This document shows, in pieces, positions 42,446-59,147 of a stretch of 64,000 nt of DNA (position 1 is the stretch's first letter; each line of letters opens with the position of its first letter). Under the pieces are notes generated by a model that worked only from the letters and a program-made list of their open reading frames with translations, did not search any database and was not told where the DNA came from. The DNA comes from Thermococcus litoralis DSM 5473 (GTDB lineage: Archaea > Methanobacteriota_B > Thermococci > Thermococcales > Thermococcaceae), in the NCBI RefSeq assembly GCF_000246985.2, contig NC_022084.1, positions 2,009,224 through 2,073,223 of the forward strand, given 5' to 3'. Position numbers and translations under genes: made by a program.

Positions 42446-42494
42446 CGTTCTGAGCTGGGAAGAGAGTTTTTAAGGCTTTCTCTCGAAAAATTGG

Positions 42495-42721
42495 ATACTG
42501 TTAGGATAAGCTGTGGGGTGTCAGGTTTAAGTTACTGGCAATACCTCAGAAAAAGAAGGGGAACATGAGGACTGAAACCATTATTTACGTTTAAGGAAAG
42601 AACAAAGCGTTTTTGGAATAATTTCAGGGGTAAAGACTGGAAAGCTTATAGGTTTGGTAGGCCTCCGGGTGATGTTACTGAATGGCTTCAGGAGGTGATA
42701 CCACAGCTATCCTAACAGTAT
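42495..42721 (+). mobile_element. 227-bp MITE-like element with terminal inverted repeats
   Basis: Left end ATACTGTTAGGATA then AGCTGTGG; the right end (reverse complement) is ATACTGTTAGGATAGCTGTGG apart from one missing base. The 21/22-bp repeats bracket 184 bp. Inside, ATG 42565 opens MRTETIIYV and stops; another frame encodes FKERTKRFWNNFRGKDW and on, and ends with a TAA at 42713 inside the right repeat. This is the pattern of an insertion sequence whose transposase lost its middle. No target duplication was recognised. The parent family is unknown to me. It lies 71 bp before the Cys-rich secreted gene. Confidence 0.75.
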
Positions 42722-42792
42722 TACTCTTTAAAGGGAAAATCTTAAATATACGAAGTGCAATTTATATAAATGATATATGGGGGGTGTACATT

Positions 42793-43587
42793 ATGCAAGA
42801 AGTATGGAAAAAAATATTTAGCATGATGTTGGTTGTATTTTTAGTAAGTACCTTTGCTACGGCAACTCCTAACCCCCCTCAATTAACAGTTCAAGTCCAT
42901 GAACAATCAAAAACATGTGGACAAATTCCCACGGGAAAAGCTGTAATTGTAGACGACTTAGTTGGAGTTGCAAAGGAAGTTGCTTTAAGGGATATTTTAA
43001 GAACAGCTGAGAAAAATTCAATATTAAAAGAAAAACTCAAAAATACTGATTTTTCAAAAGCACGTGTTAAAGCTTCTCTATTATATACTAATGATGGGCT
43101 AGTACAAAGAACAGCTATCCTAATACCCTTAGAAGACAACAAATTTATGATTTATGTAAAAGACATCAAGACTGTGGGAGCAAGAATTCAATTCGAGAGA
43201 ACAACGTATCAAGGAGTATTCATACTGGCTACCACATTAAAGAAAAGCAAGGATGGGAATGTAGAACCAATGGATGGTTGGTCTCCGGTATGTACTGATA
43301 TATCGTGTCACACTGACAGTGATTGTCCTGACTTGTCTTCCCAAGGGCTTTATTTTGGACAGTGTAGCTGTCGGCATTGTACGGATTATAACTGGGTATG
43401 CGTTGCTGCAATAGCTACAGGAGCAACAGGTTGTTCAATAGACTGTGCTGCATGTATAATTGATCCAACTAAGGTAACATGTGCAGGATGTGTTCTTTGT
43501 TTAATTTCTATTGGCCTAGGGTCTGCGGTAACATCTTGTTGTGAATCTGTAACATATACCTGTGAATACTACGAATGGTGGGACTAA
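42793..43587 (+). CDS. Secreted Cys-rich protein, halocin-C8-like archaeocin precursor (candidate)
   Basis: A 264-residue protein: signal peptide (VWKKIFSMMLVVFLVSTFAT), a domain of about 140 residues rich in beta strands (KASLLYTNDGLVQRTAILIP), then a C-terminal 98 residues holding 16 cysteines. The last ~62 residues carry ten cysteines between glycine- and alanine-rich hydrophobic stretches (GATGCSIDCAACII, CAGCVLCLISIGLGSA, TSCCESVTYTC). Halocin C8 is also a C-terminal ten-Cys hydrophobic peptide cut from a secreted precursor whose N-terminal part gives immunity. A TATA-like TTTATATAAATG lies upstream and GGGGTG before the ATG. Base composition is AT-rich. Activity is inferred. Confidence 0.6.
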   Translation: MQEVWKKIFSMMLVVFLVSTFATATPNPPQLTVQVHEQSKTCGQIPTGKAVIVDDLVGVAKEVALRDILRTAEKNSILKEKLKNTDFSKARVKASLLYTNDGLVQRTAILIPLEDNKFMIYVKDIKTVGARIQFERTTYQGVFILATTLKKSKDGNVEPMDGWSPVCTDISCHTDSDCPDLSSQGLYFGQCSCRHCTDYNWVCVAAIATGATGCSIDCAACIIDPTKVTCAGCVLCLISIGLGSAVTSCCESVTYTCEYYEWWD

Positions 43588-43589
43588 AA

Positions 43590-43907
43590 ATGAACAGAAA
43601 AATCCTCACTCTCCTCTATATTTTTACTGGAACAGCAGGGATAATGGTAACTCTACTTCATTCCGGATTTTATCCACCAAACCCGATTAATCCAATCTTC
43701 TTTTCAGTGTTTCTCGTCTTTGGTCTGCATCTTTACGGTGTTAAGAAGGTAGTAATTTATGGAATATTTTTGCTGTTGCTTTTACTGTCTCTCGGAATTG
43801 AATTTTACTACCTCTTGAATTCCCAGCTTAAAAATGCCGCTCTTTTTCTAATAACGCCCCTATTTGTGGGTGTTAAGTTTGCCATGGTGTATCCTCAAAA
43901 TTCGTGA
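43590..43907 (+). CDS. Small membrane protein, candidate immunity or export partner
   Basis: A 105-residue protein with about four hydrophobic helices (LTLLYIFTGTAGIMVTLL, PIFFSVFLVFGLHLYG, VVIYGIFLLLLLLSLGI, ALFLITPLFVGVKFAMVY). It begins two bases after the stop of the Cys-rich gene, so it is in the same transcript. Small membrane proteins next to bacteriocin genes commonly give self-protection. No family recognised; the role is inferred from position. Confidence 0.6.
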   Translation: MNRKILTLLYIFTGTAGIMVTLLHSGFYPPNPINPIFFSVFLVFGLHLYGVKKVVIYGIFLLLLLLSLGIEFYYLLNSQLKNAALFLITPLFVGVKFAMVYPQNS

Positions 43908-44041
43908 CTTCAAGAGCTCAAACTTATTTTTCTTCCTTCCAAAGTGTCATTGTTTCGAGAGATTAATATTGAGAGACAAAAGTTAAGCTTTGATTCAACT
44001 CTTATAGCTTATTATCTTAACAGTATCGAGAAATTGAATAG

Positions 44042-45049
44042 CTATTCACTCCTTAGCACTACTGCCTGAACATACTCCCCAAAATCTTCTTTCACCTTTT
44101 GCAGAGTTTCTTCACTAAAGTCTGGAACGTAAACAAATATCAGCCGCTCTTTTTCATCCCAGGAATACCCTTTTCCTTCTGCAATTGCTAGTACTTCCTG
44201 ATTAAGCCTCGTCTGGTTGTATCCATACCTTCTAAAAAGTTCCCAAGGATAAAGCTGGATGTAAGGACTGCCAATGCCTTCAAGTGCTTCTCTTGATGGA
44301 GGAGCAAAAAGAACTCTAATCCACCCGTCTCTATAGATATACATCTCCTCTCTTTTCTTGGAGTCTTCATAAAGAACCCAAAGAGGCTTGTGAGAAAGGT
44401 CAAACGTATAAACGCCGGTTCTTTTTCCCTCTCCACTATCTGCCAGAACGATTACCTGAACTCTTTGATAGTCTTTCAAAAACTTGATTTCAAACGATGG
44501 AAACGTGAGGTCTAAAGTGCACACAACGGATGCAGGATTGCACTTCCACAGCTTGAAGGTGAGCTTTAACTTGTTTCCCTCCTCTTCACATGAAAGCAGT
44601 TTGAGATAGTACATTCCGCTTGTTCCAAAGCTTGTGTATATTCTCACGTCCCCTTCAACGTCCTCCGCTCGGTTGTGGGTATAGTTTACGGGACAGGGAG
44701 GTTCGGGTTTTGTGAAATCCTCGTCGTATTCTCCCCGGACTTCTATTTTAACGGCCTCAAGAGGGATGCCTTCCTTTTCAATAGCCTTCATAAGGGCTTC
44801 TTTATCCCCATAGGGACTTATTGCAATGTGGATGTAGTTGTCCCTCGCAATGCTGTCCTTTCCAAGCCATACTACACCAATTCCATAGCTTGAATTTATG
44901 GCTAAGTGTTCAATTTTTGTCCTCCAGAGGTAGAGGTCGTTTTCGTCCCACGTTTGAGAGTTATCCCTAGAATCATTCTTAAGTGTGCTGGTGTAATATG
45001 CCGAGAAAAGCAACACTACCACAAGAGCCGGTAGCGCCCATCGTTTCAT
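44042..45049 (-). CDS. Anchored extracellular protein, unknown
   Basis: A 335-residue protein with a single N-terminal helix (WALPALVVVLLFSAYY) that would anchor a large outside domain. The first part contains a repeated beta/alpha unit (IHIAISPYGDKEALMKAIEKEG, and again near the C-terminus as FVYVPDFSEETLQKVKEDFG), with sequons NYT, NSS and NQT and four cysteines. No family recognised. The start is ATG 45049 by a TATA-like TTTTTAAAG about 25-30 bp upstream; 45058 is also possible. Confidence 0.6.
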   Translation of the reverse strand: MKRWALPALVVVLLFSAYYTSTLKNDSRDNSQTWDENDLYLWRTKIEHLAINSSYGIGVVWLGKDSIARDNYIHIAISPYGDKEALMKAIEKEGIPLEAVKIEVRGEYDEDFTKPEPPCPVNYTHNRAEDVEGDVRIYTSFGTSGMYYLKLLSCEEEGNKLKLTFKLWKCNPASVVCTLDLTFPSFEIKFLKDYQRVQVIVLADSGEGKRTGVYTFDLSHKPLWVLYEDSKKREEMYIYRDGWIRVLFAPPSREALEGIGSPYIQLYPWELFRRYGYNQTRLNQEVLAIAEGKGYSWDEKERLIFVYVPDFSEETLQKVKEDFGEYVQAVVLRSE

Positions 45050-45123
45050 GTTGATCATCAACAAAATTTACACTTTAAAAACATAAATCAATTTCGATGA
45101 CTTCAAAGAAAATGGAAATAAAA

Positions 45124-55455: not shown

Positions 55456-58400
55456 ATGACTACGCTCATAATTGCAGAGAAGCCCAATGTAGCCAGAAAA
55501 ATAGCCTATGCACTTGCCGAAAAGAAACCAATAAGAAAGACCATCGGTAAAGTTCCCTACTATGAGCTGACAAGGGATGGGAAAAAGATAATAGTTGCTC
55601 CAGCCGTTGGACACCTCTTCTCTCTCGCTCCGAAGGAAAAAACTTACGGCTACCCGGTTTTTGATATAGAATGGGTCCCCGTTTATGTTGCAGAAAAGGG
55701 AAAAAGCTACGCTAAGGATTACATAAAAGCCCTTAGAGAACTTGCAAAGAGAGCGGATGAGTTTGTCGTTGCGTGTGACTACGATACCGAAGGTGAGGTA
55801 ATAGGGTATACGGCGTTAAAATATGCCTGCGGCGTTGATCCTTCAAAAGCCAAGAGAATGAAGTTTTCTGCACTTACGAAAAAAGACCTGCTAAGAGCGT
55901 GGTATAACCTAGAGCCGACGATTAACTTTGGAATGGCAGATGCAGGAATAGCGAGGCATATCCTTGACTGGTACTGGGGAGTAAACCTCTCTAGAGCATT
56001 GAGCTCGGCTATAAGAAAAGCCAGCGGCAAGTGGATAGTTTTAAGCACGGGAAGGGTTCAAGGGCCGACGTTGAAGTTCTTGGTTGAAAGGGAGAGGGAA
56101 ATAGCAAATTTCGTTCCCACGCCGTACTGGGTCATAAAAATGATTCTCGAAAAAAACGGCCAACAGTACACAGCCCTCTACGAGAAAGATCGTATTTTTA
56201 ATGAGGAAGAGGCCAAGAAAATCGTTGAAGAGGCTAAAAAAGGGCCCGCATTTGTAGAGAAAGTGGAGATAAAACAGCAACAGAGAAATCCTCCTCATCC
56301 CTTTGACCTTGGGACACTTCAGAGGGAAGCTTACTCTGCCTTCGGCTACAGCCCAAAGAAGACTTTGGACATAGCACAAAGCTTGTATGAAAAAGGCTAT
56401 TGTCTACATCCTGATTCCCTAATACCAACTCCCCAAGGAATTAAGAGAATAAGGGAGCTACCCAAAGAAGGAGAGGTTTTTGCCCTTGATTTTGATCTAA
56501 AACTATCAAAAGCCGGTTATAAGCTTTTGGAGAGGGACGCGGATGAGCCAATGTACAAGGTCACACTAACTGACAGGACAGAACTATATCTCACCGCAGA
56601 TCATCCAGTGTTAGTGTATAGAGATGATAAGCTTATGTTTGTCCCAGCTGAAGAACTAAGAGAGGATGACCAAGTTGTTCTTCTCATAAATAGAGACAAA
56701 CCTCCCGAGAATGAGGAACCTCCAACACTTTTGGATTTCCTCCTTGAAAGCGCTGTCTCCATGAAGGACTACATAATCTACGACCGAGAATTTGGGGAGA
56801 TTATAAAGAAAAGAGTAAAAAGTGCAAGCTTGAAAACAGAAATCCTGCGGAAATTCAGAATAAAAGAACCAACATATTATAAATATCTGCGAGGCAAAAT
56901 ACCGGTTCCACTTGTTAAGTTCTTACTACAGAGAGGTATCATCTCTGATTCTGAACTAAGGAGGACATTTAAAGGGTTCTCTTATAGCACAGCTACCACT
57001 CCGATTGCGTTCGAATTTAGTGAGGACTTTTGGTACTTATTTGGTCTTGTAGTAGGTGACGGTCATTTGAACAGAAGAGGAGAGATAACGATCTCTGCAA
57101 AAGAAAGAACAAAAGATACAATAGAAGCCGTTAAAAGTGTTACAAACTCCTTGGGACTATCCTTCGCGTTTAATCCCAAATACCGCATAATTGCAATCAA
57201 TAATAAGTCGTTAACAAGACTTCTTGAGCTGCTTGGCTGCCCTTCTGGAAACAAAACAGAAATTTTCAGAATTCCTGGAATAATAATGGCAAGACCTGAA
57301 TGGATGGCAGCATTTTTAGCAGGTTATTATGATGCTGACTCCCACATTGGTACAAAGCAAACTGGAAGCAAAAAATCCCTTTCCCCTCAGATAGTTCTTA
57401 CCTCTAAAAACCGAGAAGCGATATACACAGTCAAACTGATGTGGCAGTTTCTTGGAGTTGGTACATATCTCTGGGAAAAGAAAGATAAGAATGGTGGCAT
57501 TATAGCTTATGAGCTTAAAATATATTCACGTGATGCTCAAAGGTTTTATGAGATAATGAAAGATCGCTTGAGGATCAAAAGACGCGATTTGGAGAGTGTT
57601 AAAGATACCGCTATTAGGGAAAGAAAACCTTATTCGCACCATTATAGCCTCATTAAGGTAAAAAGTTGGGAAGGAAAAATACTATCAACCAATGCCTTAT
57701 GGAAGAGTTTTGATATGTCAAACCAAACCGCTCACGGTAGAAGAATCAGCCTCGACAAGCTTCGGAGTATTGTAAGATACTTAATCGATCAAGATCTCCG
57801 CAGAATAGCAACCGGAGACGTTTATATACTCGGAATAAAATCCATTGAGAAGTTCCACTACCGAGGCAAGGTTTATGATCTTGTCGTTAATACATACCAT
57901 AACTTCATCGCTAATGGTGTTGTAGTTCACAATTGTTCCTATCCAAGAACCTCGTCTCAAAAGCTCCAAAAAACTTGAACTATGAATCGATTATCCATAA
58001 CCTTGCCAAAATTCCGGACTACAAACCTCATGCTCATGAACTTTTGGGTAAAGGAGTTTTAAAACCCGTAGAAGGCAAAAAAGATGATCCTGCTCACCCG
58101 GCAATATATCCCACCGGTGAGCTACCTAAACCTGGAGATCTAAGCAAAGATGAGCAAAATCTTTACGATTTAATAGTTAGGAGATTCCTAGCTGCATTCG
58201 CTGATCCTGCCGTAAGGGAGAGTATGAAAGTAATCATAAATTCAAACAACCACCGCTTTATCCTCAGCGGTTCGAGAACAGTTAAAGAGGGATGGCTGAA
58301 GATTTACGGCAAGTATGTTAAATTTGATGAAGTTTTGCTTCCAAAGTTTGAGAAAGGAGAGAGAGTTAAAGTTATTCAGATAAAGAGGGAGAAGAAGAAA

Positions 58401-59147
58401 ACCAAACCTCCGGCAAGGTATTCTCCAGCAAGCGTTATCAAGAAAATGGAAGACCTAGGCATTGGAACTAAGGCCACAAGGGCTCAAATCCTAGAAACTC
58501 TATATTCAAGGGGATACATAGAGGGCAAGAAAAAGATAAAGGTGACCCCTCTCGGCATGAAGGTGATAGAAGCCTTGGAAAACAATGTCCCTGATATAGT
58601 AAGCGTTGAACTAACGAGAGAGTTCGAAGAAAAAATGGAACAGATAATGCAGAACAAAATAAGCAAGGAGAAGGTCATTGAGGAATCCAAGGAAGCCTTA
58701 GTAAGAATTCTAAAGGAATTCAAAAAGAAAGAGGGAGAAATAGGGAGAAAACTTCTGGAAACATTTTTAGAGAGCCAGAAAAACAAAAAGAATAAGAAAA
58801 ACACCGATACAAAAGAACTAACTGCCGAAGAAGAGGAAAGCATCAAAAAATCTGTTGAAAAGAGAAAATCTATGGACACTATAATAGTGGGGAAGTGTCC
58901 TAAATGCGGCGGCGACTTAGTGGTTAGATATAATAGAAAAACAGGAAAAAGATTTGTGGGCTGCTCCAATTGGCCTAACTGTGACGTTACTTATCCCCTT
59001 CTCCAAAGGGGCGAGATAATTCCAACGGGAAAAACATGTCCTGAGTGCGGAAATGCCCCAATAGTGAAGATCAAGGAACGCAACAGGGAATACGAGGTAT
59101 GCCTTGATATGAACTGCTACAAAAATCGGAGAAAAGGTAAAAGTTAG
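55456..59147 (+). pseudogene. topA: DNA topoisomerase I (type IA) with an intein, and a frameshift after it
   Basis: Type IA topoisomerase; the ATG at 55456 follows GAGAGGGGTATC. N-extein (315 residues): Toprim with [13 protein letters not shown] and [17 protein letters not shown], and [15 protein letters not shown]. An intein (56401-57933) is inserted just before CSYPRTSSQ, the catalytic tyrosine motif. After splice position C+1 the frame reads [12 protein letters not shown] and stops at 57978. The other frame ([17 protein letters not shown]) carries on to 59147 with two zinc fingers (CPKCGG...CSNWPNC, CPECGN). One base is missing around the run of six A at 57968-57973. Sequencing error or true loss. 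Confidence 0.85.
56401..57933 (+). other. Intein with LAGLIDADG endonuclease in topA
   Basis: A 511-residue intein. Block A is [20 protein letters not shown] (Cys1); block B contains [10 protein letters not shown] (TxxH). DOD endonuclease blocks C and E are [12 protein letters not shown] and [14 protein letters not shown]. Blocks F/G are [17 protein letters not shown] and VVVHN, ending in His-Asn before Cys+1. All residues for splicing are present, so it should be active as a splicing element and as a homing endonuclease. The insertion site directly precedes the active-site YPRT. Confidence 0.93.

Follow-up and report, generated by a model that had tools for sequence, protein, structure and literature searches.

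The window analysed here is a 64,000-nt stretch of Thermococcus litoralis DSM 5473 (contig NC_022084.1, positions 2,009,224 to 2,073,223 of the forward strand). It carries two adjacent genes, which encode a candidate archaeocin precursor and a small membrane protein that is probably its immunity protein. Relatives were traced in other genomes, which are referred to by our genome (G) and locus (L) numbers. The features of the gene pair are:

42760 to 42769, plus strand: TATA-like box ATTTATATAA, conserved 5' of the precursor genes at L002 and L049
42779 to 42786, plus strand: Shine-Dalgarno-like stretch GGGGGGTG, upstream of the ATG at 42793
42793 to 43587, plus strand: putative archaeocin precursor gene, 264 aa (open reading frame, translation and family search)
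42793 to 42867, plus strand: Sec-type signal peptide, about residues 1-25, by inspection; helix 2-20 in the model
42910 to 43272, plus strand: pro-domain, about residues 40-160; a helix plus a beta-meander in the models
43291 to 43584, plus strand: cysteine-rich, variable C-terminal domain, the putative effector, residues 167-264; 16 cysteines, 10.4 kDa, isoelectric point 4.05
43590 to 43907, plus strand: putative immunity protein ImmA, 105 aa, four hydrophobic segments

The ATG at 42793 was taken as the start because the Shine-Dalgarno-like stretch and the TATA-like box precede it, both with counterparts in L002, L005 and L049. The alternative 301-aa reading from 42682 is mechanical. An earlier note on this DNA, made from the sequence alone, had described a secreted protein of 264 residues with a signal peptide, 16 cysteines in its C-terminal 98 residues and ten in the last ~62, encoded in an AT-rich locus. 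The analysis bore this out: the leader was recognised by inspection, the cysteine counts were reproduced (16 in residues 167-264, ten in the last 62 residues and one in the other 166) and the GC content of the locus drops to 0.34-0.38. In the window's open reading frames (ORFs) of at least 150 aa the background cysteine frequency is 0.7%, which gives 16 in 98 residues a binomial P of ~2e-17. The second cysteine-richest 98-aa stretch in the window, in the ORF 57933-59147, has 8 cysteines. With a signal peptide at one end and 16 of 17 cysteines in the C-terminal domain, the layout is that of a secreted precursor with the peptide at its C-terminus. These results support a secreted precursor with a C-terminal cysteine-rich, effector-like domain.

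The four-helix membrane protein that had been placed two bases past the stop codon is also there, as the ImmA frame begins at 43590, with 2 nt separating it from the stop, and has four hydrophobic segments. A downstream ORF was counted as a small membrane ORF when it lay within 60 nt, had no more than 145 aa and contained at least two hydrophobic segments. Such an ORF follows 30 of the 36 precursors, compared with 12 of 205 other genes of the same regions. Co-variation was analysed by partial Mantel tests in 30 non-redundant loci, with one membrane ORF per locus chosen by a fixed rule; L005 was assigned its adjacent 58-aa gene by hand, and some loci hold more than one candidate. The similarity of the C-domains correlated with that of the membrane proteins when the pro-domain was accounted for (partial r 0.24, reached by 0 of 5000 permutations), whereas the pro-domain gave r -0.06 when the C-domain was accounted for. 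In the top 14 immunity-pair similarities (at least 0.18, with a background median of 0.06), C-domain similarity was at least 0.45 in 14 of 14. The counts and the permutation result describe an effector-specific gene lying directly downstream, as in polymorphic toxin-immunity systems. They support the view that the neighbouring membrane protein bears the hallmarks of an immunity protein, and immunity looks to come from a separate cognate gene, not from the precursor's own N-terminal part.

In the main group of the family, the leader and the pro-domain are well conserved, and the C-domain varies in length and cysteine count, retaining a recognisable cysteine frame at both ends. Between the precursors of the window and of G117, identity is 94% in residues 41-88, 41% in residues 89-160 and 29% in residues 161-264. 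In the DNA, 42724-43076 is 87.6% identical and 43589-43944, which includes the immunity gene, 79%, with nothing detectable in between. This puts a junction inside the precursor gene:

43077 to 43290, plus strand: putative recombination junction region; DNA similarity to G117 stops after 42724-43076 (promoter, leader and first half of the pro-domain)

When the window was compared with G011, the C-domain was 45% identical and residues 89-160 of the pro-domain 18%. The identity profiles with G117 and G011 therefore carry the signature of an effector-end exchange. A conserved N-terminal part with an exchanged C-terminal effector, as in polymorphic toxins, is seen in the identity profile of the window against L005 and in the family alignment. 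Judged from the sequences, the putative toxin end and its protection gene are exchanged together between species.

Membrane genes also occur without the toxin. Five genomes of a different genus carry an ImmA homologue, 72-93% identical, by itself in the interval from hisS to an aminotransferase gene. At the hisS site of a sixth genome, G092, an ImmA homologue is accompanied by a 77-aa ImmB-like gene, and in G117 the site holds a full toxin with a 58-aa immunity gene. The ratio of nonsynonymous to synonymous substitution rates of the ImmA copies, including orphans, is 0.16-0.35, calculated with exclusion of the orphan L016, which has an altered C-terminus. Membrane genes are kept under purifying selection where the toxin has been lost. 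The aldehyde-oxidoreductase/MoaD site carries a toxin and the 122-aa ImmC in G011, and toxin remnants beside an intact ImmC, 97% identical over the aligned part, in G012 and in G001, where the locus is cut by the contig end. No homology was found between ImmA and ImmC (hhalign E 0.09). In G024, a 57-aa ImmB-like gene is retained behind a leader-only remnant and the ImmA copy is broken. Besides a precursor, the second locus of G007 contains an orphan C-terminal cassette, an ImmB-like gene and two membrane genes, and G012 has a locus with several membrane genes. Orphan effector cassettes and orphan immunity genes, known from polymorphic toxins, are thus represented by the L069 cassette fragment, a membrane-gene array and ImmA at the hisS site. 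At L135, L107 and L133 (G077, G021 and G106), the family's precursor genes seem truncated or broken, and small membrane ORFs lie close to them.

The two genes might also encode a secreted peptide signal, such as a pheromone or self-recognition ligand, and its cognate receptor, with the variability serving strain-specific communication. The co-variation of the effector end with the membrane protein and the presence of a secreted and a membrane-bound partner would fit. However, the membrane proteins of the family have 58-140 aa and no recognisable output domain, and genes that are kept alone under purifying selection or stacked in arrays are expected of immunity genes. A signal-receptor pair is therefore unlikely.

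The family is absent from Pfam, NCBIfam and PHROGs and was previously unclassified. The window precursor had no significant match in these collections or in the PDB sequences, and none of 35 family members significantly matched a curated family. The window precursor as a query first yielded a copy at 98% (G007), a relative at 35% (G011) and the leader-only remnant of G024; a three-sequence profile added G117 and the remnants in G012 and G001. When the 58-aa membrane protein from the G117 locus served as the query, two more precursors turned up beside its homologues. A six-sequence profile then matched 37 of 115 Thermococci genomes at E<=1e-18, all within one family. The window's own genome has a paralogue at L104:3529-4278 (G000:C1:1183034-1183747) with 22 cysteines and its own adjacent 114-aa membrane gene. 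The C-domains of the window subgroup and the main group are linked with a hhalign E of 2.6e-8 (probability 95%). Main-group copies lie at recurrent sites, beside a cupin gene in 12 of 35 loci, a proteasome-alpha gene in five, a cyclase-like gene in five and a YkgJ-like gene in three. No relatives were found in phages, plasmids or viral contigs. Other families of the class and 23 genomes of the phylum of G058 yielded no convincing relatives in searches that had no positive control. Likewise without a positive control, 398 genomes of the phylum of G060 gave one match of E 6e-4, covering 42 profile positions at the signal-peptide end, and nothing convincing.

The first cysteine motif resembles the WAP/knottin core and there are weak WAP-type matches (E 0.012 to Pfam WAP in a single member, E 4-6.5 to waprins), as might be expected of a cysteine-rich surface protein with a structural or adhesive role, or of a secreted inhibitor of proteases, that diversifies, for example, for virus escape. 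These matches are not significant, and such a protein would leave the cognate and orphan membrane genes and the toxin remnants beside intact membrane genes unexplained. We regard it as quite improbable. The AlphaFold2 model of the window protein is poor (predicted local distance difference test, pLDDT, 59.5), and that of the paralogue in the same genome is fair (pLDDT 81, predicted template modelling score 0.72). The paralogue model has a leader helix, two helices and a five-strand meander, and its C-domain consists of a strand, four short helices and a strand. Foldseek found no solved relative of either model, with nothing below E 0.09.

The locus had originally been assigned to the halocin C8 type of archaeocin, and this assignment failed. 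The mature halocin C8 peptide has ten cysteines, whereas 16 lie in residues 167-264 of the window protein. TIGR04449, the halocin C8 family, matched neither the window precursor nor any of the 35 members, and nothing else in the window's genome, while the same tools detected positive controls elsewhere. In a hhalign comparison of the C-domain profiles, built from 36 and 10 sequences, E was 0.25, whereas the two halocin C8 subgroups matched each other at 4.6e-13. A kinship of the pro-domain with halocin C8 precursors is suggestive by eye and is not claimed because hhalign gave E 0.2-0.5. TIGR04449 domains do occur in seven genomes of another Thermococcaceae genus (g3, L021-L031), six of them above the curated cut-off. 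At these loci, two unrelated N-terminal types are joined to the same halocin C8 C-domain, several are followed by small membrane ORFs, and L023 has a second cysteine-rich C-terminal gene in tandem. A true halocin C8 archaeocin in the window would agree with the shared precursor logic, a secreted protein with a cysteine-rich C-terminal peptide, and with these Thermococcaceae members. It is made very unlikely by the missing TIGR04449 match, the unrelated C-domain, the cysteine number and the separate cognate membrane gene. Halocin C8 immunity is attributed to the same gene in the title of Sun et al. (2005; cited in PMC12893001), whereas in the present family the effector co-varies with a second, separate gene.

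The gene pair lies within a mobile unit, of which the following features (no strand) were mapped; IS denotes insertion sequence and MITE miniature inverted-repeat transposable element:

42485 to 42493: left 9-bp target-site duplication GAAAAATTG, single copy at the empty site of G006
42494 to 44027: mobile unit, 1534 bp, with 16-bp inverted termini GATACTGTTAGGATAA / TTATCTTAACAGTATC; empty site in relatives
42494 to 42721: IS/MITE remnant with inverted 14-nt termini, carrying the apparent C-terminal end of an IS transposase (..GRPPGDVTEWLQEVIPQLS)
44012 to 44027: right terminus of the unit, from the repeat search
44028 to 44036: right target-site duplication GAGAAATTG, with 1 mismatch

The adjoining MITE of the earlier note is real, with inverted termini at 42494-42509 and 42708-42721. 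The stretch GRPPGDVTEWLQEVIPQLS looks like the end of an IS transposase, of which a longer version is found at L002:1124-1423. The terminus 42494-42509 also forms an inverted repeat (94%) with 44012-44027, and this third matching terminus means that the whole locus is bracketed. In G006, where the flank is 97% identical, the site reads CTCTCGAAAAATTGAATAGC without the unit, whereas in the window the unit is preceded by GAAAAATTG and followed by GAGAAATTG. The unit is likewise missing from this site in G002, G005, G010 and G012, so that five congeners have an empty site. In a sixth, G007 (L051:4857-6896), the site is occupied by the unit in the opposite orientation with ~470 bp of extra IS-like sequence, which could be the result of recombination between the inverted termini or of an independent insertion. 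From the empty sites and the inversion in G007 we conclude that the window copy was inserted, or flipped, recently, in agreement with the recent acquisition proposed before.

The unit holds the two genes only and is flanked by a Trm10 homologue and an unclassified protein. That it contains nothing besides the pair would suit an addiction module, in which a secreted toxin and a membrane antidote stabilise the IS-ended unit and do not attack neighbours. However, many family members sit at a few recurrent chromosomal sites, and such a module gives no reason to expect the immunity gene to persist by itself over long periods. We consider an addiction module highly improbable.

Taken together, our results suggest, with a probability of about 0.77, that the two genes are a polymorphic, Sec-exported, disulfide-rich archaeocin and a separate membrane immunity protein. 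Sequence comparison establishes the family, the modular swap, the co-variation of the membrane gene, the membrane gene without toxin and the insertion with target duplication. Several points weigh against this archaeocin-immunity pair. The unit contains no dedicated protease, transporter or maturation gene, no toxin was matched by fold or family search, and co-variation of this kind would also be expected of a signal and its receptor. The pro-domains of the window subgroup and the main family match weakly (hhalign E 0.001), though the C-domain link is firm. Export, the cleavage point, the disulfides, killing and the membrane target are what we infer. The precursor would be exported by the Sec route, with the pro-domain holding the effector inactive or aiding its folding. 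A protease would then free an acidic, disulfide-rich peptide of ~10-11.6 kDa (about residues 156/167-264), which may act against archaea closely related to the producer, with the membrane as the likeliest point of attack. Self-protection would come from the cognate membrane protein, whose gene follows after 2 nt. The effector end may be exchanged along with the immunity gene by recombination within the pro-domain, and the IS termini may shift the pair between sites.

In class II bacteriocins, an exported peptide is likewise accompanied by an adjacent gene for a small membrane immunity protein. The present system differs in being archaeal and cysteine-rich, with ~100 residues, a large pro-domain and a unit without a dedicated ATP-binding cassette transporter. 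With polymorphic toxin systems (Zhang 2012; Makarova 2019), as outlined in PMC8416519, it shares the constant N-terminal part and the swapped C-terminal effector, the immunity gene directly downstream, and orphan cassettes and orphan immunity genes. DNase and RNase domains are the commonest toxins of such systems in archaea (PMC8416519), whereas here the precursor is small, the putative effector a cysteine-rich peptide and the immunity proteins are membrane proteins. The VARTIG module (PMC8416519), also from the Thermococcales, likewise pairs secreted proteins that are hypervariable with distinct membrane proteins, but the unit here has no immunoglobulin-domain protein, such as the large one that heads a VARTIG module, and no peptidase. 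No characterised Thermococcales archaeocin was found in the literature searched; the 2019 mBio survey of archaeal toxins (10.1128/mBio.00715-19), outside that search, may list part of the family. Polymorphic toxins and archaeocins are already known as general concepts, which limits the novelty.

We would give even odds to a broader picture in which Thermococcaceae compete chemically by means of membrane-acting peptides that are hyperthermostable and rich in disulfides and exist in a large repertoire of alleles. Every peptide would have its own small membrane protein for immunity, the pairs would be exchanged at recurrent sites of the chromosome, and in this strain one would be packaged as a minimal transposable toxin-immunity unit. 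The ~35 natural effector/immunity pairs, including likely immune non-producers, allow direct tests, in a genetically tractable order, of how hyperthermophiles recognise self and compete. Disulfide-rich peptides of very high heat stability would be of practical interest, and the mobile unit illustrates how such a pair can spread.

Two further genes were noted. At L070:13-1461 of G009, a secreted-looking protein of 482 aa with 18 cysteines, unmatched by the family profile, lies 5' of an ImmB-like 78-aa membrane ORF. Beside the insertion in the window, 44042-45064 encodes a 340-aa protein of an unknown family with an N-terminal hydrophobic segment, which is conserved throughout the genus and is split in G009.
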